This document shows, piece by piece, positions 34,461-53,647 of a DNA stretch of 64,000 bases (position 1 is the stretch's first letter; every line of letters begins with the position of its first letter). Below the pieces are notes generated by a model, which did no database searches, was not told the origin of the DNA, and was given only the letters and a program-made list of their open reading frames with translations. The position numbers and the translations under genes were made by a program. This DNA is from an uncultured Bacteriovoracaceae bacterium (GTDB taxonomy: Bacteria; Bdellovibrionota; Bacteriovoracia; Bacteriovoracales; Bacteriovoracaceae), in contig CALHLC010000019.1 in NCBI GenBank assembly GCA_938034385.1, forward strand, positions 1 through 64,000. Reading direction: 5' to 3'.

Positions 34461-35588
34461 ATGAAAAAAGTCTTTATCTATCTTGCTGGCAAAATTGCTA
34501 ATATTCTTAGTAAACTCAATAGACTCTTCTTGATAAAAAAAAGAGTCTATCTAATGCATCATCAAGACCTTTCAAACTTACTTCCCTTGATAAACAACAA
34601 AGAAGAAATCATTTATTTTTCGCTTAGATTTGATGACTCCGAAATCAACTCTATCCCTGGAAATCATAAGCTTTATAGTCTAAGAAACAAAATCAACTAT
34701 CTTTCTTTGTTTTTCCGACTCTCTTTTTATGAAAAAATTATATTAAATGATTCAACTAACCCTATAGGTGTTATTAGCTTCAGTCCCAAACAAAAGATCA
34801 TTCAATTATGGCATGCCTGTGGGGCATTTAAGAAGTTTGGTCATGAGTCTCATCACAATAAAGAAAAAAATGAAGACCTTTTCAAAATGTATTCTAAATA
34901 CACTTCGATAATTGTTAGTTCTGATGAAATACGACAATGTTATGCAAAAAGCTTTTCAGTTAGCAAAGACAGGGTCTTAGCTTTAGGCTTGCCAAGGACC
35001 GATATTTTTTACAACGATGAAGAAATCCTAAAAGCTCAATCAAGTTTTTATTCAATGTTTCCTTCTTTTGCAGGCAAAGAAGTTATTTTATACGCACCTA
35101 CTTTCAGACAATCCAATAAAAGTAATCATTATAAAATGATGAATACAATCTCTGTTGTTTCAAAAAACCTTTCAAGTAACCAAGTTCTCATTTATTCCTT
35201 ACACCCGTTTGAAAAAAAACATATTATAAATAGTCTTGATGAAGATTCCAATTTTACCAATAAGCCCATCTCTACTCAAGATCTTCTTCTTATAGCAAGC
35301 TCTTTAATTACTGACTACTCTAGTGTTATTTTTGATTATTGCTTATTAGACAAACCAATGTTTTTCTTTCCTTATGACCTTGATTCTTATGAGTCAAAAC
35401 AACGTGGATTCTACTATCCTTATTCCGACTTAGCTCCTGGACCAATTTGTTTTGATACAAAATCTCTTTCAAAAGCAATCTCCTTAAATGAGGACTACTC
35501 ATTAAAAAGAAAGATCTTTAAGGAAAAATTCATGTCTGCATGTGATGGGTACTCAACACAGAGACTAGAGAGTCATATTCTAGTTTGA
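34461..35588 (+). CDS. CDP-glycerol/ribitol-type polyol phosphotransferase (TagB/TagF-like) 1
   Basis: 375 residues. Glyphos_transf features: LWHACGAFKKFG with the catalytic His, LYAPTFRQS, YSLHPFE and ITDYSSVIFDY near residue 285-292. These enzymes transfer glycerol-phosphate or ribitol-phosphate from CDP-polyols onto an acceptor, as in teichoic acids and some Gram-negative capsules. It overlaps the second copy by 4 bases. Substrate specificity (glycerol or ribitol) is not visible, but the CDP-ribitol-synthase-like gene next to it favours ribitol. Confidence 0.88.
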   Translation: MKKVFIYLAGKIANILSKLNRLFLIKKRVYLMHHQDLSNLLPLINNKEEIIYFSLRFDDSEINSIPGNHKLYSLRNKINYLSLFFRLSFYEKIILNDSTNPIGVISFSPKQKIIQLWHACGAFKKFGHESHHNKEKNEDLFKMYSKYTSIIVSSDEIRQCYAKSFSVSKDRVLALGLPRTDIFYNDEEILKAQSSFYSMFPSFAGKEVILYAPTFRQSNKSNHYKMMNTISVVSKNLSSNQVLIYSLHPFEKKHIINSLDEDSNFTNKPISTQDLLLIASSLITDYSSVIFDYCLLDKPMFFFPYDLDSYESKQRGFYYPYSDLAPGPICFDTKSLSKAISLNEDYSLKRKIFKEKFMSACDGYSTQRLESHILV

Positions 35589-36712
35589 AGAATAAAAACA
35601 AGTACACTTCTGTTCGTTTAAAGCAATTTTCTCAGGGGTTTCTCTTTTCTTTCCTGTCTCTTTTTTTAAATCGAAAAAAAAGAATTATTTTCAACAGCAG
35701 CTACAACGATCGATTTAATTTCAATTCAAAATATCTTTTCTTATATTATTTAGAAAACAGAAAAGATATAAAAGTATATTTCGTTGTTAACGATAATAAA
35801 TTGAGAAGAACTTTATCTCTAAAGTATGGAGATTTCTTCATTAGGAACAAAACACTCAAAGAAAAAATTTTCATTTTACAATCCTCTATCTGGGTTACAT
35901 CTACAATGGAGACCCCCATTCTAGGTTTCTTTTACAAGTTTAGGAGATATGTTCTCCATCTAAGCCATGGAGTTGTATTCAAGAATGCTGGTGTAAGTGA
36001 AAACAACACTTCTATTTTAAAAAAAACTTACTACTTCATTATTCGATCAAATTTCACTCAATATCTAGCTACATCTCAAAATTTAGCTAAAGCGACAGCA
36101 AAGGTTTATGGAACCTCTAGTAAGCATATTTTAATAGCAGGAATGCCTAGAAATGATGTTATTTTAAATGACTCTCGAGAAAAAAGATCGTTTCTTTACG
36201 CTCCTACCTGGAGACCTTTCAGTAAACAGTATCCTCTCCCTTGTCATCCTTCTCAAGAACATCTACTCCTTGAGTTTTTAGAAGACAATAATATTTCTCT
36301 CTATATACGGCATCATCCATATTTTGAATTGGACAATTACAATTATAGCTCTTCTTCCATCATAAATTTTGATTCTTCTGTTTGCTCAGATCTGTCTTTG
36401 AGTTTAAATAAATTTCAAGGAATAATTACTGACTACTCAAGCTTATTTATCGACGCATTGCTCCTCGAAACCAATCTTGCCTTTTATGATTATGATTATG
36501 AGCTATTTAATGAAAAAGTGGGCTTTTTGTTTGATTACCATAAATCTATTCCTGGTCCACAGGTCACTAATATAGAAGAGCTAAAGAAATTCTTCATATC
36601 TTCTCTAAATTACGAAGGAACACAAAAAAGACAAGATCTCAAAAAGTTTTTTTTCGATGATACTAGTGGAAGATATAGCGAGAAACTCTCTAATTTGCTA
36701 GACTCAAAATAA
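35585..36712 (+). CDS. CDP-glycerol/ribitol-type polyol phosphotransferase (TagB/TagF-like) 2
   Basis: 375 residues, a diverged paralogue of the preceding protein with the same motif order: LHLSHGVVFKNAG (His), LYAPTWRP, IRHHPYFE and ITDYSSLFIDAL. The TTG start overlaps the previous stop. In such pairs one enzyme often primes and the other polymerises; that division is inference. The next gene supplies a likely CDP-activated polyol. Confidence 0.87.
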   Translation: MKNKNKYTSVRLKQFSQGFLFSFLSLFLNRKKRIIFNSSYNDRFNFNSKYLFLYYLENRKDIKVYFVVNDNKLRRTLSLKYGDFFIRNKTLKEKIFILQSSIWVTSTMETPILGFFYKFRRYVLHLSHGVVFKNAGVSENNTSILKKTYYFIIRSNFTQYLATSQNLAKATAKVYGTSSKHILIAGMPRNDVILNDSREKRSFLYAPTWRPFSKQYPLPCHPSQEHLLLEFLEDNNISLYIRHHPYFELDNYNYSSSSIINFDSSVCSDLSLSLNKFQGIITDYSSLFIDALLLETNLAFYDYDYELFNEKVGFLFDYHKSIPGPQVTNIEELKKFFISSLNYEGTQKRQDLKKFFFDDTSGRYSEKLSNLLDSK

Positions 36713-36730
36713 TCATAAAAGGATATTATT

Positions 36731-38086
36731 TTGGAATCTAATATTGCCATCATATTAGCTGGAGGGTCAGGTTCTCGTTTTGACTCCAATACTCCCAAAC
36801 AGTTTTTAAAACTAGCCGGAAAACCGATTATTATCCACACATTAGAAAAGTTTCAAAACCATCCACAGATAGATCAAATTGTTATTGTTTCTCACGAAAC
36901 CTATATTGAAGACTTTGAGGAACTCGTCATTAAGTACAAACTGGAAAAAGTAAAAAAAGTTGTTCCAGGAGGAGCAACACGTCAAGAGTCTTCTCACCAG
37001 GGACTCCTCGCATGCTGCCCTAAAAAAACAAAAAAAGTTCTAATTCATGATGGCGTACGACCATTTGTTAGTGACGAAATCATTTCAAATTGTATTGCTG
37101 AATTAAGCTCACAAGATGCTATTGATGTTGCAATAGCTTGTGCTGATACAATAATCAAAGTATCAGAAGGCTTCATTGAATCTATTCCAAAACGAGAGTT
37201 TCTAATGCGGGGCCAAACTCCCCAAGGTTTCAACTTTTCCAAAATATTAGAAGCTCATACAAAATACTTAGAAAATAAAAGCTTTCCAGTCACAGATGAT
37301 TGCGGTCTTTATCGTAATTTCTTCTCAGATAAAATCAAAATAATTAAGGGCGAACAAAAAAACATTAAAATAACTTATCCCGAAGATTTAGTCCTTGCAG
37401 AAAAGCTTTTCCAGCTAAATAAGAGCAACGTAACTTTAGCACGTCTTGAAAACTTAAAAGATAAAACAATCGTTGTTTTTGGTGGAAGTAGCGGTATAGG
37501 ACAAGCCATCTCTTCTCTTGCAGAGCAAAATGGAGCAAAAGTATTTTCAACCTCTAAAAGTCAAGGAGTTGATATTACAAAACCTAAAAATGTTCAACCC
37601 TATCTTGATGAAATAAGCAAAGAGACACCAATTGATATAATAATTAATACTGCAGGGATACTTGAAAAAGATCACCTTAAGGATCGTAACTACAATAATA
37701 TCAATGAAGAAATTTCAATCAACTACCTAGGAAGCATTGTCATTGCCAAAGAGTCTTACGAACACCTCAAGAAAGCAAATGGCCACCTTCTTTTATTTAC
37801 CTCAAGCTCCTACACCAGAGGTCGAGCTGGCTATAGCATTTACTCATCAACTAAAGCAGCGATAGTAAATCTTGCTCAGGCAATTTCCGAAGAATACCTA
37901 GATTCTCAAATAAAAGTAAATGTCATCTGTCCCGAAAGAACTAAAACTCCAATGAGAACAAAAAACTTTGGCGTTGAACCAGAAGGTTCATTAATGGACC
38001 CACTCGAAGTTGCAAAAATCTCTCTGTCTACTGTTCTTTCTAGTTTTACAGGTTTAGTAATAGATGCCAAAAGAACTAATAAGTGA
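36731..38086 (+). CDS. Fused cytidylyltransferase plus short-chain dehydrogenase (CDP-ribitol synthase-like)
   Basis: 451 residues. N-terminal IspD/TarI-type cytidylyltransferase at about 1-230 with ILAGGSGSRF, TPKQF, DGVRPFV and TDDCGLY. The C-terminal SDR domain at about 240-450 has GGSSGIG at about 251-257 and the YSSTK active site near 370. Bifunctional proteins of this type in Haemophilus type b capsule loci make CDP-ribitol from ribulose 5-phosphate and CTP. The TTG start has AAAAGGA 6-7 bases upstream. Neighbours TagF-like 1 and 2 would use the product. Confidence 0.88.
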   Translation: MESNIAIILAGGSGSRFDSNTPKQFLKLAGKPIIIHTLEKFQNHPQIDQIVIVSHETYIEDFEELVIKYKLEKVKKVVPGGATRQESSHQGLLACCPKKTKKVLIHDGVRPFVSDEIISNCIAELSSQDAIDVAIACADTIIKVSEGFIESIPKREFLMRGQTPQGFNFSKILEAHTKYLENKSFPVTDDCGLYRNFFSDKIKIIKGEQKNIKITYPEDLVLAEKLFQLNKSNVTLARLENLKDKTIVVFGGSSGIGQAISSLAEQNGAKVFSTSKSQGVDITKPKNVQPYLDEISKETPIDIIINTAGILEKDHLKDRNYNNINEEISINYLGSIVIAKESYEHLKKANGHLLLFTSSSYTRGRAGYSIYSSTKAAIVNLAQAISEEYLDSQIKVNVICPERTKTPMRTKNFGVEPEGSLMDPLEVAKISLSTVLSSFTGLVIDAKRTNK

Positions 38087-39207
38087 ATTTAGTTCACTAC
38101 GGTCTCTATAATAAGTACTTTTACTTCCTAGCTAAAATAACCCGTAATCTCGCTAATCATATAAGATTATTTTTTTTTGATTTCACTCCCATTTCTACTC
38201 CACCTCTAGTCTCTGTTGTTATCCCCTTTTACAATGAAGAAAAACACTTCATTGCTTGTATCGAAAGTGTTCTTTCTCAAACCTATTCAAACATTGAATG
38301 TCTAGTGATAGATGATGCATCGACCTCTACATCTCAACTTAAAGCAATCAAGAAAAAATACACTGATAAAATTAAGTTTTTCTCTCACCCGTACAACAAA
38401 GGTCTCTCTGCCGCGAGAAACACTGGTATCAAGAACGCCGAAGGTAGTTATATAACTTTTTTAGATGCTGACGACATTTTACTAAAATCATCTATCTCGA
38501 GACGAGTCATTGATTTAATGAATAATTCAGACCCACTCGTGATAGGGAGCTTTGGTTTTTCAGCTCATGTAAAAGAAAATTTTTCTCCCTTAGCATATTT
38601 GTTAAATTATTATGGAATCAAGAGACAAGTTAAATCTTTAGAAAATTGTAAGCTTTATGTTCCTTTCCCGGTTCACTCCCCCTTATTAGATAAAAAAATT
38701 TTTTCGACCTTCAGCTTTGATGAAAGCTTAATATTTGGAGCAGAAGATTGGCATTTCTGGAATGAATTATTGATTAATGATTATAAGTTTATAAGTAGTG
38801 GGTATGTATCTGGACTCTATCGTCAGAAAAAATCTAGCATGCTCAGGTCTAACTCAGAAGAAAGGTTTAAAATAGCTCTTACTCTAATTCAATCTGCCTA
38901 TAATCGAGGAAGAGAACTAAACTTCTCCCACTTCAATGAAAAACTACTTAACAGAGCACAGCTAGAGAGACTTATTTTTAATTACTGCTTTAGTTTTTTA
39001 AAAGGCAATCAAAAATCAGCTCAAAACTTACTGAATTCCTTCAAAGGAAACTTCAAACTTAAAAAAACCATGAGAGAAAAAAAAGTTCTTTACCTGATAG
39101 GCCTTGCTGTTTGCAGATTCAAAGTAAGTAGTTATTCAAAGACAGATAAAGATCTTCAACGTTTAATTCATACCATTTATTCTGCTCTTCAAAACAGATT
39201 CAACTAA
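38083..39207 (+). CDS. Glycosyltransferase family 2
   Basis: 374 residues. GT2 domain: VSVVIPFYNEEKHF, CLVIDDAS, GLSAARNTGIKNAEG, and LDADD with the metal-binding Asp residues; GAEDWHFWNELL is the acceptor-side loop. The GTG start overlaps the CDP-polyol synthase stop by 4 bases. A second, similar GT2 lies at 48381. Its 3' end overlaps the convergent CMP-synthetase-like gene by 45 bases. Confidence 0.88.
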   Translation: MNLVHYGLYNKYFYFLAKITRNLANHIRLFFFDFTPISTPPLVSVVIPFYNEEKHFIACIESVLSQTYSNIECLVIDDASTSTSQLKAIKKKYTDKIKFFSHPYNKGLSAARNTGIKNAEGSYITFLDADDILLKSSISRRVIDLMNNSDPLVIGSFGFSAHVKENFSPLAYLLNYYGIKRQVKSLENCKLYVPFPVHSPLLDKKIFSTFSFDESLIFGAEDWHFWNELLINDYKFISSGYVSGLYRQKKSSMLRSNSEERFKIALTLIQSAYNRGRELNFSHFNEKLLNRAQLERLIFNYCFSFLKGNQKSAQNLLNSFKGNFKLKKTMREKKVLYLIGLAVCRFKVSSYSKTDKDLQRLIHTIYSALQNRFN

Positions 39208-39840
39208 GTCCCAATCTTCTTGCTCATCAATATCTAAAGCTTCAATTTTATTAAGCTCAAAGAAGCATGGTTTACTTCCTATTCTTTTTTTTCCATTTGA
39301 TAAAAATGATTCTTTGGAGAAAATGAAAAAATTTGAATTCTCTTCATACAAAGGTTCTAAATCCTGAGTCCTAATGAGCTCATTGGGGTCATGGTTTACT
39401 GGCACGATATTTTTATCATACAACCTAGTCTGTAGTCTTGTTACTGAAAACATTGAATCGAATTCTTGAGACTTCTCTGAGATTTTTTTTATTGCATTTT
39501 TTATACTATTAGATTTCAAAAGAGGATTTGTTGAGTGAGTTTGAAAATAATAATTGGCTTTTATTGAAGCCATATCATATTCAATAATTTTATTCATTGA
39601 AACATAGTCACCTTGTAAGTCTACAGGCCTATCAAGACAAACGACTTCAGGAAAGTTTTTAAGAACATCACTTTTTATCTTCTCTGAATCAGTATTAATC
39701 ACAATTTTTGAAAAACAATTAGAATCTAATAATGAATTCACCACATAATGGTACAAAGGAATCCCATTCATGAGCCTTAAATTCTTATTCGGAACTCTTT
39801 CAGAGTTTCCCTTCATGGGAACTAATGCAACTATATTCAT
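39163..39840 (-). CDS. Acylneuraminate cytidylyltransferase-like (CMP-sugar synthetase)
   Basis: 225 residues. The signature LVPMKGNSERVPNKNLR at 6-22 is that of NeuA/KdsB-like synthetases; TDSEKI and the end DIDEQEDWDLVE are also typical. These enzymes activate alpha-keto acids such as sialic acid or Kdo as CMP derivatives. No sialic acid synthase (NeuB) is encoded nearby. It is the last gene of the six-gene operon 43736-39163 and overlaps its upstream gene by 4 bases. Confidence 0.85.
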   Translation of the reverse strand: MNIVALVPMKGNSERVPNKNLRLMNGIPLYHYVVNSLLDSNCFSKIVINTDSEKIKSDVLKNFPEVVCLDRPVDLQGDYVSMNKIIEYDMASIKANYYFQTHSTNPLLKSNSIKNAIKKISEKSQEFDSMFSVTRLQTRLYDKNIVPVNHDPNELIRTQDLEPLYEENSNFFIFSKESFLSNGKKRIGSKPCFFELNKIEALDIDEQEDWDLVESVLKSRINGMN

Positions 39841-40751
39841 ATGTTAAGCTCTTTAATTAAATTATGAACACTCATTAAGCCTTGTTTCTCTACATTATCA
39901 ATAGTTCTTGAAGCAATATGAGGAGTAATAAATATATTCTCCAATCTCAAAAGAGGATCATCTTCCAAGCAAGGCTCTTCATACCATACATCTGTTAGAT
40001 AAGCTCTAATCTCTCCAGTGTTTAATAAACTCTCCAATCCAGATTTATTTACAATATGGGCCCTTGAAGTATTTACTAATATTAAGTCTTTTGAGGTTTT
40101 TAAGTTTTCTACATTCAATAAGTTTCGAGTGGATTCATTCAAAGGTACATGAATACTTATTATATCAAAGAGAAAAAGGTCACGAAGACTTTCAACTTTA
40201 TTCATTCCTTCGCAACTGGCTACATAAGGATCATAAAAAGAGACTCTTATATTAAATGCCTTTGCTCTTTTAGCAACTTCTTTACCAATTTTTCCTAATC
40301 CTAAAATAAGAAGAGACTTTTGTTTTAAATCAAAGCCAGTTTTTCTAGACCACCTCCCTGCTCCCGTCTCTTTAAACGAGTAGGGAATATTTTTAGCGTA
40401 ACTCAACAAAAGGGCAAAAACATGTTCAGCAACAGTTTCATGATTAATCCCCAGACAGTTCACCACTTTAATCTCTCGTGCTTTAGCAGCATTTAAGTCT
40501 ACTTTGTCTAAGCCTACTCCATATTTAGATAAAACTTTTACATTTGCTTGTTCTAATTCTTTAAGTACTGTCGAAGAATATTCATCGTCTCCACATACAA
40601 CTCCATCATATTTATTCCATTGAACTTTTAATAACTCCTCTTCTGACAAAGGACCACGCAAGTAATCAACAGAAGTGAATGTCTTTTCAAGAAGGTTTTT
40701 ATGTTCTCCTTCGTTATCTTGGAAAGATGTAGAAGTTACTAAAATATTCAT
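39837..40751 (-). CDS. D-isomer-specific 2-hydroxyacid dehydrogenase
   Basis: 304 residues. Rossmann motif LGLGKIGKEVAKRA, the dehydrogenase signature LVNTSRAHIVN, and WYEEPCLEDDP followed by TPHIAS with the catalytic His. It reduces or oxidises a 2-keto/2-hydroxy acid with NAD(H); annotation as phosphoglycerate dehydrogenase would be too specific. It overlaps both neighbours by 4 bases in the six-gene operon, so it acts on an acid intermediate there. Confidence 0.88.
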   Translation of the reverse strand: MNILVTSTSFQDNEGEHKNLLEKTFTSVDYLRGPLSEEELLKVQWNKYDGVVCGDDEYSSTVLKELEQANVKVLSKYGVGLDKVDLNAAKAREIKVVNCLGINHETVAEHVFALLLSYAKNIPYSFKETGAGRWSRKTGFDLKQKSLLILGLGKIGKEVAKRAKAFNIRVSFYDPYVASCEGMNKVESLRDLFLFDIISIHVPLNESTRNLLNVENLKTSKDLILVNTSRAHIVNKSGLESLLNTGEIRAYLTDVWYEEPCLEDDPLLRLENIFITPHIASRTIDNVEKQGLMSVHNLIKELNI

Positions 40752-41389
40752 AATTGACTTAACTTTTGTTGAAAGTTTGTGAAATCATCTATTCTCATCA
40801 CAGCATCTCCAAAATCATTTTCATTGTAATCATGGTTCACTACTATGAAATGAAAATTGAATTTTTTTGCTGCTTTATAGTCTGAGTTTGCATCTCCGAT
40901 AAAAACTGTTTCGGAGGGATTCAAGGTATGATCAAGAAGTATTTCCTCAACCCACTGAATTTTGGACCGAGGAGACCCATAAACTGAATCGAAGTATTGA
41001 GTTAAGTCTTTCCTTTCAATAATATCATTCATTTCATTATGGGGAGTGCCTGAAATAACCCAGTTCTTATAAGTGTTAGAGTGAGATTTCAAAAAGTCTT
41101 CGAGCCCTTTTGTTAAACTTCCAGCTATCACTTTTTCTTTCACAAAACTTGAATATTCATGAGCAAGTTTTTCTATTTGAATCTCATTTATTTCTTTATT
41201 TAAATATTCTTTATGCCATTTTTTAAATTTCTCATAACGACTTACCCCTCCCATCGAATAATGATCTTTTTCTACCTGGACGGCAGTCTTCTCTCCAAAC
41301 TTCATATAAACTTCATAAAAACCTTTACCTTTCAAAGGTACTGAATCAACAAAGACTCCATCAAAGTCCCATAAGATATTTTTAATCAT
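40748..41389 (-). CDS. HAD-superfamily phosphatase
   Basis: 213 residues. HAD motif I DFDGVF at 8-13, motif II VISGTPHNE, motif III Lys in SKIQW and motif IV FIGDANSDYKAA, with a helical cap as in phosphoglycolate-phosphatase-like enzymes. It probably removes a phosphate in the operon's pathway. The ATG at 41389 is chosen for AAGG 7 bases upstream; it overlaps the cyclase stop by 8 bases. Confidence 0.85.
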   Translation of the reverse strand: MIKNILWDFDGVFVDSVPLKGKGFYEVYMKFGEKTAVQVEKDHYSMGGVSRYEKFKKWHKEYLNKEINEIQIEKLAHEYSSFVKEKVIAGSLTKGLEDFLKSHSNTYKNWVISGTPHNEMNDIIERKDLTQYFDSVYGSPRSKIQWVEEILLDHTLNPSETVFIGDANSDYKAAKKFNFHFIVVNHDYNENDFGDAVMRIDDFTNFQQKLSQL

Positions 41390-42050
41390 GTTCAACCTTC
41401 GCAAAAACGGTTGCAGGTGCTCCATCTCCTTGGAATAGCCTCAAAGGAGAAACAATCATTTTTGAAATTTTTGATGACTTTGATAAGTTGGTGAGATCAA
41501 GATCTTCGAGAATCAAAATCTTGTGATCTTTTAAAAATTCTTTATGAACCTCTCTCCCTAGTTCCCTATTCTGAAAATTTGTTAAAGAGATAGAGTCAAA
41601 ACCAATAAGTCGAAGTTGAGGGAAGATTGATTTTAAGTGAGAGGCTACACCTTTATTAAAACCAGGTCCATTTTTCCAATACTTCTCAGAGCTTCGTTCG
41701 TGACAATAATGAGACTTTATAATCAATGCTTCTATTTTCTCACTTTGATCAAACTTAAAGTCATTGGGCTCAAATAACTTATTCTCTCTTTCTAGTAACG
41801 AAAAATCATAAAATAAAACAGTCTTAAAAATAAAATCATTTGGTTTATATTCAGAAGCTGTTGCTCCTTCCTTATCAAAGTGAAATGGAAAATCTAAATG
41901 CGTGCCAAAATGTGTAGGCATGGAAAACTCTGTATTATTACTGGTATCACCACAACACATCTGCCTAGTTTTTGAAATTTTTATTCTATCTCCATCTCCA
42001 TAACCAGAAATGGTATTACTTAATTCATAAGACAGAAAGTTCCAACTCAA
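41382..42050 (-). CDS. Cyclase-family hydrolase (kynurenine-formamidase fold)
   Basis: 222 residues. The PF04199-type metal motif HFGTHLDFPFHF is visible near residue 47-58, with a further SHYCHERS-type region. These manganese/zinc enzymes hydrolyse formamides, lactones or cyclic intermediates. It overlaps the epimerase gene by 4 bases and the HAD gene by 8. In this operon a lactonase or formamidase step is plausible, but the substrate is unknown. Confidence 0.8.
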   Translation of the reverse strand: MSWNFLSYELSNTISGYGDGDRIKISKTRQMCCGDTSNNTEFSMPTHFGTHLDFPFHFDKEGATASEYKPNDFIFKTVLFYDFSLLERENKLFEPNDFKFDQSEKIEALIIKSHYCHERSSEKYWKNGPGFNKGVASHLKSIFPQLRLIGFDSISLTNFQNRELGREVHKEFLKDHKILILEDLDLTNLSKSSKISKMIVSPLRLFQGDGAPATVFAKVEHD

Positions 42051-42979
42051 TGGATATCCTCATTTGAATCAGTCGTTAATAATCCAAATTTTTCTTGAAC
42101 GTCAGGATGTAACGACTGATGAATTTCTCCTAAAAGGTTTATAAGTCCCTGACCGAGATCAACTTGTGGGTTTGCAATTAATTTTTTTCCAAATTTAGGA
42201 CTAAACGAATAAGGAGACAGCTTATAGTGAGTCTTCGCTTTTTTCTCATGATAGTTTATTTTCACTTTATTTTGTAACATTTCTGAAACCATCGATAGTA
42301 AATCAGAGTATTTAATAGTGGTTGGGCCTGTTAAAATAATATTTTGATTTGAGAAGTTATCACCTAAAACCTGAACACTCATCTTTGAAGCATCAAAGAC
42401 ATGAATGAACTCTCTTCTTTCATCTCCTTTACCTCCATAGTTTATTTCTTGTTGAGTGAGCGCATCTTCACAAATTCTATACAAACTATTTCTTCTATCT
42501 GTTCTTGGTCCATACAGTGATCCATAACGTAAGATCACATAGTTTAGCCCAAACTCTTCATGATAAGTTTCAATAAGCCCTTCACATGCTTGCTTACTTA
42601 CTCGGTAAAAAGAACCTGAGTCTGAATAAACATAAGCTGAACTTGCAAAGACAAGCTTTTTAACATCGGCTTCTTTACAAGCTTCTAAAACATGTGCTGT
42701 CCCAAAAACATTAATTTTAACTGTATCAACGGGTCTAGAGTTACATTCATCAATATCAGCAATACCTGCCATATGATAAACATAATCCATTCCTTTTATG
42801 GCATTTCTTAAGGCTTGTTCATCCAAGATACTGCCTATAATTTCTTGCTGGTCACCCCTTTTATATGGACTGGTTTTATGATCAAAGATTGTAACCTTGT
42901 GACCGGCTTCACTCAGCGCATCTGCAACGTGGCTTCCTAAAAATCCAGAACCACCAATAACTAATGTTTTAAATTTCAT
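42047..42979 (-). CDS. NAD-dependent epimerase/dehydratase (extended SDR)
   Basis: 310 residues. N-terminal VIGGSGFLGSHVADAL (GGxGFxG), active-site YRVSK, and the RYGSLYGPR region are typical of nucleotide-sugar epimerases/dehydratases. Substrate not determined. It overlaps the aldolase end by 11 bases and the cyclase start by 4; it belongs to the six-gene operon. Confidence 0.88.
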   Translation of the reverse strand: MKFKTLVIGGSGFLGSHVADALSEAGHKVTIFDHKTSPYKRGDQQEIIGSILDEQALRNAIKGMDYVYHMAGIADIDECNSRPVDTVKINVFGTAHVLEACKEADVKKLVFASSAYVYSDSGSFYRVSKQACEGLIETYHEEFGLNYVILRYGSLYGPRTDRRNSLYRICEDALTQQEINYGGKGDERREFIHVFDASKMSVQVLGDNFSNQNIILTGPTTIKYSDLLSMVSEMLQNKVKINYHEKKAKTHYKLSPYSFSPKFGKKLIANPQVDLGQGLINLLGEIHQSLHPDVQEKFGLLTTDSNEDIH

Positions 42980-43736
42980 TTCTCAATACCTTTTTCATCT
43001 CTTCTCTAGCACGATCACCAAGAAAGAAAAAATCTATACTAAAGGCCAAAAAAGTATAGCCTTCTTTGATTTTTTCATTAAGATATTTTGCTTCAGACTT
43101 AATCACATGAAAACCCAAAGGTTTTTTATATTTAAAGCATGCTGCTTTAACCTTCTCTAGAGCTTCTTTTACATCGTCTCTCTCATATTCTCCTGGGTAG
43201 CCCATAGAAGCCGACAAATCGTATGGTCCAACCAGGGTTCCATCTACACCGGGGACTTGTAAAATCTCCTCAATATTTCTCACTGCATCAATGTGTTCAA
43301 TCTGAGTTATAAGCACTGAATTTTTCTGATTTGATTCTTTATATTCTACGAAGCTAGTTCCATAATTTTGGGCCCTGTAAAGACCAACTCCACGAGTTCC
43401 TATCGGAGGATACTTTGTGTAGGAAACTGCCCTCCTAGCTTCTTCTGCAGTTTTTATCATGGGAACAATAATTCCCTCAGCTCCAGAGTCCATCACCCGC
43501 TTAATAATTAGCTCATTATTACCGCCCACTCTCACCAAGGGAGTACAGCCCTTTGCTTGAGCAGTAGCGATTAAGGTTTTAGCTGTTTCTATGCTCGTGC
43601 TCGTATGCTCCAAATCTATAACTAACCATTCAAAGCCTGCTGAAGACATAATCTCGACAACATCTGGGTGAGCTATTGATATCCATGAACCTATAGATAG
43701 TTTATTATTAGACAATTTTTCTTTAAGTGTATTCAT
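42969..43736 (-). CDS. HpcH/HpaI-type class II pyruvate aldolase
   Basis: 255 residues. Family features: SIGSWISIAHPDVVEIM, FEWLVIDLEHT, the RGVGLYRAQ motif and QIEHIDAVRNIEEIL, then GTLVGPYDLSASMG with metal ligands. These enzymes reversibly condense pyruvate with an aldehyde, making or breaking 2-keto-3-deoxy acids. It is the first gene of the operon. In a CMP-sugar context the synthetic direction is suggested, but a degradative direction is equally known. Confidence 0.9.
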   Translation of the reverse strand: MNTLKEKLSNNKLSIGSWISIAHPDVVEIMSSAGFEWLVIDLEHTSTSIETAKTLIATAQAKGCTPLVRVGGNNELIIKRVMDSGAEGIIVPMIKTAEEARRAVSYTKYPPIGTRGVGLYRAQNYGTSFVEYKESNQKNSVLITQIEHIDAVRNIEEILQVPGVDGTLVGPYDLSASMGYPGEYERDDVKEALEKVKAACFKYKKPLGFHVIKSEAKYLNEKIKEGYTFLAFSIDFFFLGDRAREEMKKVLRNEI

Positions 43737-43803: not shown

Positions 43804-45180
43804 ATGATATTTAGCACAATTCAATTCACATTTATCTTCTTGCCAATTGTTGTAGTGTTGTATTTTTTCTTACAAAAACGAAGCCAAACAATATCTAAAT
43901 ACTTCTTAATATTAAGTTCTTTATTTTATTACTCTTATTGGAATTGGAAGTATTTATGGGTCATTCTCTTATCAGTACTATTTAACTTCCTTATAGGTCG
44001 TAAACTTCATAAAAGTCCGAAGAAATCGATTTTAAGCTTTGGAGTAATAGCTAACCTCTCTTTTTTAGCATATTTTAAATATTTTAACTTTTTCATAGAT
44101 AATCTTAACTACATTACAAGATCAGATTTGCAATTTGGAAAAATCGCTCTACCTTTAGCTATTTCTTTTTTCACCTTCCAACAGATTGCATATATCGTAG
44201 ATATTTATAGAAATAATAACATCAAATACAAGTTGATAGATTACTCTCTTTTCGTGGTCTTCTTCCCCCAACTTATAGCTGGTCCAATTGTTCACCACAA
44301 AGACCTAGCACCTCAATTCAAAGGTAAGAATATAGCTTTTAACTGGGATAATTTATATTTTGGTTTCTCTATTTTCGTAATCGGCTTAACAAAAAAAATG
44401 TTGATTGCTGATAATCTATCTAAATATGTTGCTAATGTTTATGACAAGAAAGTTCAACTTTTTTCTTTCTATGAAAGCTGGGTCGCTACTCTAAGTTATA
44501 CTTTCCAATTATATTTTGACTTTAGTGGTTACTCAGACATGGCTATCGGTATCGCTCTCATGCTTGGAATTCATTTACCATTAAATTTTGATTCTCCCTA
44601 TAAATCAAAGAACATTATAGAATTTTGGAGAAAATGGCATATTACCCTTTCTAGTTTTCTAAGAGATTATCTTTACATTCCTCTCGGTGGTAATAGAAAT
44701 GGCAAACTCAGAAAAAACGTCAATCTCCTAACAACAATGCTCCTAGGAGGATTATGGCATGGAGCAGGCTGGAATTTTATAATTTGGGGAGCCCTACATG
44801 GCCTTTACCTCGTTATAAATAATTTCTGGCGTCAAATTTATAAAGGCAATTCCAAGCTTTACACCCTTTGCTCTGTTTCTTTAACATTTTTAGTAACTAT
44901 TTTTGCTTGGGTCTTCTTTAGAGCTAAAACCTTTGACCAAGCTATTAATATACTCAATAGCATGACACGTGACTTCTCAGGGTTACATTTAGGCTCAGAG
45001 ATATATATTCTCTTTCTTGTTGCACTGATTACTTTCCTTGCTCCAAACACTCAAGAAATTCAGAAATTCAAAAAATCAAAGTTTCACTTTATAATAACCT
45101 TGATCTGCTCTCTACTTTCTTTTTACTTACTTCTGTTTAATTCTAACCAAGTTCACGAGTTCCTATATTATGACTTCTAA
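43804..45180 (+). CDS. MBOAT-family membrane O-acyltransferase
   Basis: 458 residues and about eleven membrane segments. The AlgI/DltB-type pattern WRKWHITLSSFLRDYLYIPL near residue 274 and GLWHGAGWNFIIWG near 316 include the catalytic His. It probably acylates a secreted polysaccharide at the inner membrane. An SGNH-like partner gene overlaps its end by 11 bases, as in alginate and D-alanyl transfer systems. Confidence 0.92.
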   Translation: MIFSTIQFTFIFLPIVVVLYFFLQKRSQTISKYFLILSSLFYYSYWNWKYLWVILLSVLFNFLIGRKLHKSPKKSILSFGVIANLSFLAYFKYFNFFIDNLNYITRSDLQFGKIALPLAISFFTFQQIAYIVDIYRNNNIKYKLIDYSLFVVFFPQLIAGPIVHHKDLAPQFKGKNIAFNWDNLYFGFSIFVIGLTKKMLIADNLSKYVANVYDKKVQLFSFYESWVATLSYTFQLYFDFSGYSDMAIGIALMLGIHLPLNFDSPYKSKNIIEFWRKWHITLSSFLRDYLYIPLGGNRNGKLRKNVNLLTTMLLGGLWHGAGWNFIIWGALHGLYLVINNFWRQIYKGNSKLYTLCSVSLTFLVTIFAWVFFRAKTFDQAINILNSMTRDFSGLHLGSEIYILFLVALITFLAPNTQEIQKFKKSKFHFIITLICSLLSFYLLLFNSNQVHEFLYYDF

Positions 45181-46240
45181 AAGAAACTTTACACTTTCTA
45201 TTTTTTTATCATTTCTTATGTGTTTTTTATTCGCTAGTTTAAACTATATTGTTGACCCTTTTCAATATTTCAGAAAAAGTTCCCTCCTAAATAACGAGTA
45301 CCATAAAAATCAACGATTCCAAGTACCCGGGATGATTAAAAATATTAACTCTTCAAATTTTGTTATTGGAACTTCAATGGGTGAAAACTTTGAAACACAG
45401 AGAATAGATAAAGAGTTAAATTGGAACAACACACTAAGACTTTCTGTTTCGGGTATTATGCCATCTTCTCAAAAAATATTATTAAACTTTTTGAATAGAT
45501 CTCGTAAAGTAAATAATATAATAATGGATTTGCATTGGTATTTAGCTGAATTAGATCCGAATAAGAAAAATTCAACATATGATTTTCCGCAGTATTTATA
45601 TTCTGACTCTCTATGGGGAAAAATTAAATATCTTATAAATAGTGGGGTTCTTAAAGAGTCAACAAACCTTCTCTTGAAGCACAAAAGCGACTTCAAAGTA
45701 AGGAACAAACTGAATAATTGGATGAACGATAAAGTTTTTGCCAATTATACTAAGGATAACAATCTTATTCTCTTATCTAAGAAACTGACTAGTCAAAACA
45801 ACAAGATTACAGTTAAGTCTCAAACATTCCAATATCCTAGTTTTGAAAAAAATCTTTTCCCGTTTTTACAAAACAATCCCAATATAACGTTTTATCTCTT
45901 TCTACCTCCATATTCTACCTGGCACTATAAAACAATAAAAGACCAAGACTTTCTCTTGAGACTTGTTTTTTTTAGATCATATCTTACTCAAAAGCTTCAG
46001 GGGTTAAAAAATGTTAAACTTTTTGCTGTTGATGAAAACTTCTCAATTGTAAATAATCTAGCTAATTACAAAGATTATGGACACTTTAGAAACTCCGTCA
46101 ACAAGTACATTATTCATTCAATAAAGAACTCAAAGCATCAAATCGACTCAAGTAATATTAAAGTTCATATGGAAAAATTCATTCAAAATATAAATGCATA
46201 TGAAAAAGTTCTAATTAGTAAGCCTTATATTTATCCTTGA
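45170..46240 (+). CDS. SGNH-like membrane-anchored partner of the MBOAT protein
   Basis: 356 residues. N-terminal membrane anchor (LSIFLSFLMCFLFASLNYIV), then an extracytoplasmic domain. FVIGTSMGENF (Ser in block I position) and YKDYGHF near residue 300 (Asp-x-x-His) match the catalytic Ser/Asp/His of SGNH/DltD/AlgX-like proteins. Such proteins hand the acyl group to the polymer in the periplasm. Assignment rests on motifs and the 11-base overlap with the MBOAT gene. Confidence 0.72.
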   Translation: MTSKRNFTLSIFLSFLMCFLFASLNYIVDPFQYFRKSSLLNNEYHKNQRFQVPGMIKNINSSNFVIGTSMGENFETQRIDKELNWNNTLRLSVSGIMPSSQKILLNFLNRSRKVNNIIMDLHWYLAELDPNKKNSTYDFPQYLYSDSLWGKIKYLINSGVLKESTNLLLKHKSDFKVRNKLNNWMNDKVFANYTKDNNLILLSKKLTSQNNKITVKSQTFQYPSFEKNLFPFLQNNPNITFYLFLPPYSTWHYKTIKDQDFLLRLVFFRSYLTQKLQGLKNVKLFAVDENFSIVNNLANYKDYGHFRNSVNKYIIHSIKNSKHQIDSSNIKVHMEKFIQNINAYEKVLISKPYIYP

Positions 46241-50753: not shown

Positions 50754-51539
50754 TTAGAGCCTTTCTCTTAATTGCCCTTCTTCTCTAGAGATTCTTGATA
50801 TTAATAGCAAGGTTAGTAAAATTTGCACTGCAAAGAAGGCCAACACGTAAAACTCTCCATTCGTTTGCTCTGCAGAATAAAAGTAATATCTAACTTTTTC
50901 TATTAAGATATATACAAAATTAAACTCTAAAAACTTTAATTGAGAAAAAACAGAAGGAACAGGGATAATAACCCCGCTTAAGAACATCATATATTTGAAA
51001 AAGATATTTAAAACATTCTTTAAATCACGAATGTAGCAATAAAAAACCGACAAGAAAACACCTATGCTTAGACCTAAGATGGCAAAGGGGAAAAATGATA
51101 AAGGGAGAAGTATAAACTCAAAAGAAGACAAGCTTGAATACTTTAACGCTAAAAAGAACATCAATGGTAAGCGTACTAAAAAAGTTACAAAAGGTTGTCC
51201 AAGAGCTGCAATATAAATAGGAGTAAAAGGAATTTTCTTTTTCTTTAAAATACCTTTATTATCCACAGGAGCACTCATTACGCCCAATGTACTACCTGAA
51301 AAAACTTCCCAAAATGTTATTCCAAAAACGACATAAAATGCTCGCGGCATTTGGTCTGAACTTTTAAGAAACCCAATCTCTTGCAAGAATATATATAAAA
51401 GAATGGGAATCAATGGAGTTATAATTACCCAAACCCACCCCAAAATATTATTCCGTGAAGAACTTTTAATATTTTTAAGAAAACTATAGAAAATAAAACT
51501 TCTATACCTTAGGAGTTCTAAAATCACTGGCTTAAACAA
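50754..51539 (-). CDS. ABC-2 type polysaccharide exporter permease (Wzm/TagG-like)
   Basis: 261 residues, six membrane segments. The N terminus (LLRYRSFIFYSFLKNIKSSS) and LGWVWVIITPLIPILLY are typical of Wzm/KpsM/TagG permeases, which pass undecaprenyl-linked polysaccharide through the inner membrane. The TTG start follows directly after the ATPase stop, with GGAG just before, so both subunits are coupled. Confidence 0.9.
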   Translation of the reverse strand: MFKPVILELLRYRSFIFYSFLKNIKSSSRNNILGWVWVIITPLIPILLYIFLQEIGFLKSSDQMPRAFYVVFGITFWEVFSGSTLGVMSAPVDNKGILKKKKIPFTPIYIAALGQPFVTFLVRLPLMFFLALKYSSLSSFEFILLPLSFFPFAILGLSIGVFLSVFYCYIRDLKNVLNIFFKYMMFLSGVIIPVPSVFSQLKFLEFNFVYILIEKVRYYFYSAEQTNGEFYVLAFFAVQILLTLLLISRISREEGQLRERL

Positions 51540-52763
51540 TTAGTTCTCCTCTTTTTTTGGTTCTTCTTTAAATGAACATAATGCAACTCCATGAACTCTT
51601 GCATCAAAGCCACTTATTTCAAAAGGCTCTAAAATTTTTCTTACCAAATACTCTGATTTAAGTGTTAAGATAAAACAAGAATCAATTGGTCCAGAATTAA
51701 ATATATTATGAATTTTAAGCAACTGACCTTTTTTTAACACTGATACTGACAAGTCACACGAATCATATTCAGAGCTAATCGAAGAAATATTTATATTATC
51801 TCTCCAAAAGGGCATTGAAAAAACAAGGTCTTTCCCACAGTCTACAAGTAAGGTAGCTTTGAAAAATAAATAAATTGGTTCGTTTTTTGAAAAAACCTTT
51901 CGCGGAGTTAAGAACTCATCACACCAGAAAACTTCTAAATCTGAGACTATTTCATTGTTATGAAAATCTTCTCCGAGGTTAGGATTCTTTAATATCTCTT
52001 TCTCATCTCGAGCTTCAGATTTCCGATATAAATTAATCGCTTTCTGAACATCACCGTCAAAAACAATAGTTCCTCTATCAAAGAGTAAGGCTCGAGTACA
52101 AAATAATTTCACTGTCTGTAAATTATGACTTACTAAAACAACTGCCGCATCTTTTCTGATCTCATTGATCTTCCTCAGACATTTCTGTCTAAATCTAAAA
52201 TCTCCAACAGATAACACTTCATCTACAAGCAAAATATCTGGGTTAGCAAAGATAGCAGCTGAAAATCCTAAGCGCGCCTTCATTCCTGAACTATATTTCT
52301 TAACAGGAAAATCAATAAATTCATTCAACTCAGAAAACTCTATAATTTCATTAATCAAGAATTCTCTATCTTTTTTTTTCAAATTCGGGATCATAGAGAC
52401 AGCAAATAGTAAATTCTCTCTCCCTGTCAGATCGTAATGAAACCCTGCACCTAGTTCTATTAAAGCTTGTATTTTCCCATTTACTTTCACACTGCCTTCA
52501 CTGGGGTCATATAATCCATTTATTATTTTTAAGAGAGTACTCTTGCCTGCTCCATTTCTTCCAATTAAGGCAATCGCTTCACCTTTTTTGATAGAAAAAG
52601 AAATCTCTTTCAAAGCTGTGAAGTGATTCGCTTCTTTTGATATTGCTTTTTTTTTTACAATACCTAAAATCCGAAGAACCGTCTTTGCAAGTTCTCGTAC
52701 TACATTTTTTTTTTCAGATTTCTCAAAAAATTTACTTACTTCATTGACTTCAATTAGATTCAT
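51540..52763 (-). CDS. ABC polysaccharide exporter ATPase with C-terminal binding domain (Wzt-like)
   Basis: 407 residues. ATPase domain at about 47-265: Walker A GRNGAGKST at 68-76, signature KYSSGMKARLGFS, Walker B ILLVDEVLSVGD. The C-terminal ~140 residues are beta-rich, as in Wzt proteins, where this domain recognises the terminal modification of the O-polysaccharide. This fits the methyltransferases in the locus as chain-end modifiers. The start shares one base with the DUF115 gene stop (TAATG). Confidence 0.92.
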   Translation of the reverse strand: MNLIEVNEVSKFFEKSEKKNVVRELAKTVLRILGIVKKKAISKEANHFTALKEISFSIKKGEAIALIGRNGAGKSTLLKIINGLYDPSEGSVKVNGKIQALIELGAGFHYDLTGRENLLFAVSMIPNLKKKDREFLINEIIEFSELNEFIDFPVKKYSSGMKARLGFSAAIFANPDILLVDEVLSVGDFRFRQKCLRKINEIRKDAAVVLVSHNLQTVKLFCTRALLFDRGTIVFDGDVQKAINLYRKSEARDEKEILKNPNLGEDFHNNEIVSDLEVFWCDEFLTPRKVFSKNEPIYLFFKATLLVDCGKDLVFSMPFWRDNINISSISSEYDSCDLSVSVLKKGQLLKIHNIFNSGPIDSCFILTLKSEYLVRKILEPFEISGFDARVHGVALCSFKEEPKKEEN

Positions 52764-53647
52764 TAGAACAAACTCTCAAATTCTACCCTATCAAAAATCT
52801 CCAATTTCCCACCTACAGTAGCATTAAAGATTTTTCTCCCACTGGTTTCATAAATGGTTTTTTGTAATTGATAATTCTTCATTACATTTTCTAATTTGGG
52901 ATCGTGCCATTTCTTCCCTTTACCAAAATAATCAGGGTGAAAGTGGTTGGGATCATCTTCTGTAGAAGTAATATTAGCCCCTTCAACTATTGCTGATTTA
53001 GGAATATCATAAGAAAAATCCATTCCTATAAGGTAGACTTCGGTAAAACCCATATAATAAGCTAACTGCAAATTAATCATTGTCACCGATTGACCACAAA
53101 ATGCTTGTAGTGAAAAATCTGTTGAGAATTGGGGGACTTCAAAGTTTGAGCTCTTAGATTCATAGAAGCTCCTGTTCATTCTAAAGAAACTTGTATTTTT
53201 TCTATTGGTTATCTTTTCATAATAATCAATAGGAAAAAATCGATGTATCTTAGGCTCAAATAAATTTATTCTCTCTAAGTTATCATTTATTACATGAGAA
53301 TCCTCAACCATATAAAAACTAGGTCTATAGCCCGAAGAGTCAGTTTTATAAAAAATTCCATTAACAGCAAAAGAGTATTCATGATCTAACTTTGAAAGGT
53401 CTATCCTATTTAATGAAGGTCCATTTCCAACAATGAAGCATCGCTTATTTTTATACTTATTTTTAAACTCTCTAATTTTAGAGATATCAGGAGACTTTAT
53501 ATTATACCTTACTTCATGAAGGTAGCTATTAGATAAAATCCCAGTTCGTTGACAGTGCTTAATACTCGCCATATCAAATAGCATCTTGGATCCACCCAAT
53601 CGAAAGTACTTAATCGCTTTTTTAGTCTTATGAATAATTCGTTTCAT
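52763..53647 (-). CDS. MptE/DUF115-like protein, possible CMP-sugar transferase
   Basis: 294 residues. Near the centre-left lies FIVGNGPSLN (71-80), and later INLQLAYYMGFTEVYLIGMD. DUF115/MptE-like proteins share this GNGPSL motif and GF.eVyLiG.D pattern with bacterial sialyltransferases (GT42, Cst-I type), as I recall them. A transferase using the CMP-activated product of the operon at 39-44 kb is a reasonable inference; the family annotation as pterin kinase would be misleading here. It overlaps the ATPase gene by one base. Confidence 0.75.
   Translation of the reverse strand: MKRIIHKTKKAIKYFRLGGSKMLFDMASIKHCQRTGILSNSYLHEVRYNIKSPDISKIREFKNKYKNKRCFIVGNGPSLNRIDLSKLDHEYSFAVNGIFYKTDSSGYRPSFYMVEDSHVINDNLERINLFEPKIHRFFPIDYYEKITNRKNTSFFRMNRSFYESKSSNFEVPQFSTDFSLQAFCGQSVTMINLQLAYYMGFTEVYLIGMDFSYDIPKSAIVEGANITSTEDDPNHFHPDYFGKGKKWHDPKLENVMKNYQLQKTIYETSGRKIFNATVGGKLEIFDRVEFESLF

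Follow-up and report, generated by a model that had tools for sequence, protein, structure and literature searches.

A six-gene operon of a Bacteriovoracaceae bacterium that may build a CMP-activated sugar acid with an aldolase in place of NeuB or KdsA

How can a bacterium supply a sugar acid activated with cytidine monophosphate (CMP) when the operon that encodes the activating synthetase contains no enzyme condensing phosphoenolpyruvate (PEP)? This question is raised by six minus-strand genes at positions 39163-43736 of the window, the 64,000-nucleotide stretch of contig CALHLC010000019.1 from an uncultured Bacteriovoracaceae bacterium that we analysed. In order they encode an HpcH/HpaI-type class II pyruvate aldolase (ALD, 42969..43736; PF03328, 1.6e-38), an extended short-chain dehydrogenase/reductase (SDR) of the NAD epimerase/dehydrogenase family (EPI, 42047..42979; PF01370 Epimerase, 1.6e-46), a cyclase-family metal hydrolase with a TTG start (CYC, 41382..42050; PF04199 Cyclase, 1.3e-12), a HAD phosphatase (HAD, 40748..41389; PF13419 HAD_2, 1.4e-17), a D-2-hydroxyacid dehydrogenase (DH, 39837..40751; PF02826 2-Hacid_dh_C, 1.4e-42) and, as last gene, a NeuA-like CMP-acid synthetase (CMPS, 39163..39840; PF02348 CTP_transf_3, 7.1e-31). 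We consider it reasonably likely that the operon serves the biosynthesis of a CMP-activated 2-keto sugar acid (ulosonic acid) for a surface polysaccharide, without NeuB or KdsA and by a scheme that would use all six enzymes.

The genes, their order, their families and their overlaps had been listed in an earlier note on this DNA, and a check of open reading frames (ORFs) and Pfam matches confirms the list. All five junctions overlap, by 11, 4, 8, 4 and 4 bases. The mechanical ORF of HAD extends to 41425, yet the ATG at 41389 is preferred because of the position of the HAD motif; the 3' end of CMPS shares 45 bases with a convergent glycosyltransferase gene. Five consecutive overlaps form the longest run in the window, and translation of the genes would be coupled. 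However, 11 further overlaps are found among the 33 other same-strand junctions that our gene list gives for the window. The overlaps support an operon but are unremarkable alone, and were dropped as evidence by themselves. None of the six proteins reaches any NCBIfam equivalog cut-off. Each can thus be placed in a known superfamily, while none is identified as a particular named enzyme. CMPS, for example, reaches the CTP_transf_3 superfamily, with PseF as its best equivalog model (100.5 bits, cut-off 205.7) and only 27.3 bits against the kdsB model (cut-off 155.2).

A NeuB or KdsA encoded elsewhere, which the earlier note had named as a possible source of the synthetase's substrate, was sought in the whole window genome (G000; 2.67 Mb, 99% complete). 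NeuB (PF03102) has no match in it. A single KdsA exceeds its cut-off, on another contig (C17:37240), and lies in a KdsB-PyrG-KdsA-KdsC cluster, in which PyrG and KdsC were named by reading the sequence. The only KdsA thus has its own KdsB and KdsC. No NeuB product accounts for CMPS, and 3-deoxy-D-manno-octulosonic acid (Kdo) does not require it. In view of this separate, full Kdo cluster, Kdo synthesis by the window operon was rejected. The genome also encodes a second NeuA-like CTP_transf_3 protein, outside the window and near a contig end (L112 17624-18352, equal to C19:109949).

Relatives were sought in 98 genomes of the phylum using the cyclase, and in GTDB genomes using an alignment of the epimerase, which gave at least 80 loci. 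These and the phylum loci make up a survey set of 84 loci carrying EPI. All counts below refer to these 84 listed loci and depend on a flank of 8 kb and on EPI as bait. The GTDB loci come from Betaproteobacteria, Desulfovibrio, Campylobacterota, Bacteroidota, Chloroflexota, Omnitrophota, Elusimicrobia, Alphaproteobacteria and archaeal records. DH is present in 58, HAD in 59, ALD in 42, CYC in 20 and a 6-phosphogluconolactonase (PGL) in 14, while the synthetase is KdsB-like in 40, of the window type in 11 and of a third, NeuA-like type (CMPS2) in 21.

The gene set, for which the earlier note had suggested a search, does recur. Another genome of the window organism's genus (L015) has all six genes in unchanged order. 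In Flavobacteriales the window gene set is found as CMPS-ALD-EPI-CYC-HAD-DH, with the synthetase shifted to the front (L093), and likewise in L089, where one methyltransferase gene follows CMPS. A Marinimicrobia locus reads CMPS-ALD-EPI-PGL-HAD-DH (L092) and a Flavobacteriaceae locus CMPS-ALD-EPI-PGL-HAD, with the contig ending after HAD (L095). Looser groupings occur in more distant genomes of the phylum, such as ALD-KdsB-like-DH-CYC-EPI-HAD (L020). EPI is missing from three loci (L017, L019 and L023), where DH is accompanied by a classical SDR and by a cyclase or a distant match to one. In two of these (L017 6077-10153, L019 5981-10059) DH-CYC stands beside a GmhA-like isomerase, the classical SDR and a 3-dehydroquinate-synthase-like enzyme, which suggests yet another form of the module. 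In two loci without aldolase (L016 8853-10654 and L060 about 5.2-7.0 kb), transketolase is encoded as separate N and C halves that lie between or beside CYC, DH and EPI.

An Acuticoccus plasmid carries ALD-CMPS-DH-HAD-EPI consecutively, with a window-type CMPS and only generic names at NCBI; the gene set is therefore also plasmid-borne. A small Dabb-family protein follows EPI in this run (L122 9951-10274), which has neither CYC nor PGL, and could be a third replacement for these. A scan of viral contigs with the cyclase and a blastn search of plasmids with the operon gave no match.

Aldolase and synthetase are not combined at random. All 42 ALD loci have a KdsB-like or window-type synthetase and none has CMPS2 (Fisher p 3e-8). 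The remaining core, that is the SDR, the putative lactonase, DH and HAD, is found with CMPS2 and without aldolase in L064, L069, L070, L071, L072, L087 and L104, and in 10 of the 11 searched genomes that combine core and CMPS2, ALD has no detected homologue at any position. The aldolase is therefore linked to the kind of acid being activated. As a refinement of the earlier idea of an operon built around an aldolase, its core also exists without ALD and then has a different synthetase.

The strongest support for an aldolase in place of a PEP enzyme comes from Nitrosomonas marina Nm71 and Desulfovibrio piger, which both have an operon of this type. In neither genome was a KdsA over the cut-off, a NeuB or a WaaA detected, and the KdsB-like enzyme of the operon is the only strong CTP_transf_3 match. 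The substrate of this synthetase must then arise otherwise, and the adjoining aldolase is the natural candidate source. The earlier claim of a dedicated CMP-acid operon, with a pyruvate-type aldolase and no NeuB or KdsA among its genes, has thus held up and extends to two isolate genomes that lack both enzymes as far as detected. That such a module makes a CMP-activated acid without a PEP synthase we regard as very probable.

A second line of evidence concerns the cyclase slot. PGL occupies the position of CYC in L092 and L095, and exceeds the curated TIGR01198 cut-off in L025 and L095 but not in L092. CYC and PGL never occur together in the 34 loci with either (Fisher p 0.018), and at least eight swaps between them were counted on the EPI tree. 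Repeated replacement by an unrelated gene in one slot is good evidence of a shared job. Since a PF04199 metal hydrolase and Pgl share lactone (ester) hydrolysis as their chemistry, CYC is most likely a sugar-lactone hydrolase, a reading based on gene content. The earlier note had it open or close a lactone; of these two, opening is the better reading. This shared chemistry suggests that the substrate is a lactone, probably that of a sugar phosphate, for which the SDR would be the source.

As far as alignments can tell, catalytic residues are conserved in all six families. The nearest solved relatives of ALD are GarL (1dxe) and HpaI (4b5s). It shares 76 of 206 aligned residues (37%) with GarL, and in alignment with GarL its His44 and Arg69 (catalytic) and Glu147 and Asp173 (metal-binding) are kept in at least 95% of 41 pathway aldolases. 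EPI has conserved YxxxK and GGxGFxG motifs, with Y125 and K129 invariant, and its AlphaFold model (pLDDT 89) matches NDP-sugar 4-epimerases (Z 35.4 to 4zrm). It has the extended SDR fold with YxxxK but reaches no equivalog cut-off, and this fold does not separate epimerases from dehydrogenases. The metal-binding motif HxGTHxDxPxHF of CYC is conserved in 25 sequences, and its nearest solved structures are kynurenine formamidases. D8, D10, K143 and D166 of HAD are kept in at least 93% of 58 sequences, and D170 also belongs to the motif set. DH is nearest to phosphoglycerate dehydrogenase (1wwk) among solved structures, and its catalytic R230, E259 and H278 are kept in at least 93% of 60 sequences. 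CMPS is nearest to CMP-NeuAc synthetases and its D205 is conserved across 12 window-type enzymes.

The most economical scheme, which would give each of the six enzymes a role, is as follows. The SDR would oxidise a sugar phosphate to a lactone, which CYC or PGL would hydrolyse to a sugar-acid phosphate. DH would oxidise its 2-hydroxyl to give a 2-keto acid phosphate and HAD would remove the phosphate. ALD would contribute a pyruvate unit, by addition or exchange, in an aldol reaction with pyruvate itself or a substituted pyruvate, and the resulting 2-keto-(3-deoxy) acid would be coupled to CMP by the NeuA-like CMPS. The exact order of steps is tentative: all substrates, the order, the direction of both dehydrogenases, the entry point of ALD and the origin of its aldehyde are what we infer. 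For DH the earlier note had proposed reduction of a keto group. We found no evidence for this, and oxidation of the 2-hydroxy acid released by lactone hydrolysis fits better. Hydroxypyruvate as donor for ALD, made via phosphoglycerate oxidation, was considered and not adopted because it leaves the SDR and the lactonase without a role.

Several observations weigh against this scheme. The main one is that the SDR resembles NDP-sugar 4-epimerases in both sequence and fold, so that it may epimerise rather than oxidise. The oxidative core as drawn yields no aldehyde, which ALD requires as acceptor, so that the link between core and ALD is tentative; the two might make two halves, or two different residues. 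Neither CYC nor PGL is seen in 50 of the 84 loci, and several Desulfovibrio loci lack DH beside ALD-EPI-KdsB-HAD. DH could also run as a reductase. Finally, the genomes free of KdsA and NeuB carry a KdsB-like synthetase and not the NeuA-like type of the window.

These points give room to other explanations. The many loci with core and CMPS2 but no ALD, together with the one use that each core enzyme would have, are what would be expected if oxidation sufficed, with the core making a 2-keto aldonic acid for CMPS and ALD having a side role or altering the product, for instance by exchanging a three-carbon end. We think this unlikely, since the constant pairing of ALD with particular synthetases argues that ALD shapes the acid activated in operons of the window type. 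It is also conceivable that two linked pathways were joined, in which ALD and CMPS make one 3-deoxy-ulosonic acid and the SDR, DH, hydrolase and HAD are responsible for making or modifying a different sugar of that polymer to which the acid belongs. An ALD-KdsB pair does stand apart from the DH/EPI/CYC/HAD group in L017, L074, L084 and L101, but all parts form one run in the window, L015, L020, L025, L089, L093 and the Acuticoccus plasmid, and we hold such a division to be quite unlikely.

The likeness of EPI to NDP-sugar 4-epimerases, and LegB as its top NCBIfam match (far below the cut-off), would also suit an ordinary 4-epimerase acting on a nucleotide sugar, in which case the operon would be a variant nonulosonic acid pathway. 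This appears improbable: besides the lack of NeuB in the window genome, known nonulosonate pathways have no step for a lactone-type hydrolase or a 2-hydroxyacid dehydrogenase, and the three loci described above with DH and cyclase carry a classical SDR instead of EPI. Most improbable seems an alternative route to Kdo, by condensation of pyruvate with D-arabinose (5-phosphate) by ALD. The synthetase in most ALD loci does belong to a KdsB subfamily, exceeding the NCBIfam cut-off in the two tested, and KdsA is undetected in N. marina and D. piger. However, these two genomes also lack a detected WaaA, and a published survey finds N. europaea nearly devoid of Kdo2-lipid A genes, with lpxK alone, and cites lpxA alone for Nitrosospira multiformis (PMC3087551). 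The KdsB-like enzymes of the pathway, with a median mutual identity of 52%, are just 24-32% identical to the Kdo KdsB of the window genome, which itself combines a full Kdo set with a NeuA-like synthetase in the operon.

The surroundings of the operon form a surface-polysaccharide region, with two PF04464 glycerophosphotransferases, an IspD-SDR fusion, family 2 glycosyltransferases, an MBOAT acyltransferase and an ABC-type polysaccharide transporter (50754-52763, named by reading the sequence). A candidate transferase for the activated acid is an MptE-like protein on the minus strand (52763..53647; PF01973, 1.3e-23). MptE-like domains occur in Maf flagellin glycosyltransferases, which use CMP-nonulosonates. 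The protein has a marginal match to the GT42 sialyltransferase CstII (E 0.012), and its homologues adjoin the module in L074 and L092 and lie about 5 kb away in L072. Its structure model (pLDDT 41) is too poor for a fold search. In Nitrosomonadaceae a conserved protein divergent from the operon, possibly a glycosyltransferase, is found in L025, L033 and L028 (about 3.8-5.2 kb), with no Pfam match in L025.

At 34461-38086 the two CDP-glycerol-type glycerophosphotransferases are followed by the IspD-SDR fusion, which is like ribitol-5-phosphate cytidylyltransferase/reductase pairs. These predicted functions suggest that the organism forms a polyol-phosphate polymer besides making Kdo. The MBOAT O-acyltransferase gene and a downstream partner without Pfam match (43804..46240, plus strand; PF03062, 2.4e-36, for MBOAT) are divergent from the operon across a gap of 67 bases. 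In L093 an MBOAT gene likewise comes immediately after the operon; the association with the operon is weak.

Taken more broadly, the module may represent a widespread, horizontally mobile and undescribed pathway. A class II pyruvate aldolase would take the place of NeuB/KdsA in it and, joined to a Zwf-Pgl-like oxidative module, give a new CMP-ulosonic acid for surface glycans in many phyla; in N. marina and D. piger the pathway would be the only CMP-ulosonate route detected. We put this forward as a possibility, with reserve. No description of the gene set was found in the open-access literature, subscription papers being outside the search. If the proposal is true, numerous bacteria of scattered affiliation make a charged sugar for their surface by a route that goes unrecognised in current annotation, where its genes are labelled aldolase/citrate lyase family protein, phosphoglycerate dehydrogenase, acylneuraminate cytidylyltransferase and the like. 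The occurrence of KdsB-like enzymes in genomes with no detectable KdsA would then be accounted for, a sugar to be sought in the glycans of Nitrosomonas and Desulfovibrio would be predicted, and the operon would provide a testable case of an anabolic pyruvate aldolase.

Parts of this putative pathway are familiar from known systems. Like the pathways for nonulosonic acids (sialic, legionaminic and pseudaminic), the operon ends in a NeuA-like CTP_transf_3 synthetase and has a surface-polysaccharide setting, but an aldolase, a lactone-type hydrolase and a D-2-hydroxyacid dehydrogenase replace the NDP-sugar and PEP steps and NeuB is missing. With the Kdo pathway (KdsD, KdsA, KdsC, KdsB) it shares the logic of a 2-keto acid, a HAD phosphatase followed by a CMP transferase and, in most related loci, a KdsB-like synthetase. 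It differs by a class II pyruvate aldolase instead of the PEP-using KdsA, by additional oxidative genes and by the presence of a separate Kdo cluster in the genome. ALD has the fold family and the catalytic residues of the catabolic HpcH/HpaI aldolases (GarL, HpaI, RhmA/YfaU), whereas its setting is biosynthetic and its scores reach at most about half of the HpaI, GarL and RhmA cut-offs. The swap of CYC and PGL suggests the chemistry with which the pentose phosphate pathway starts (Zwf and Pgl), oxidation of a sugar phosphate followed by 6-phosphogluconolactonase; here, however, the dehydrogenase is an extended SDR and not Zwf, and the pair is set within a CMP-sugar operon.

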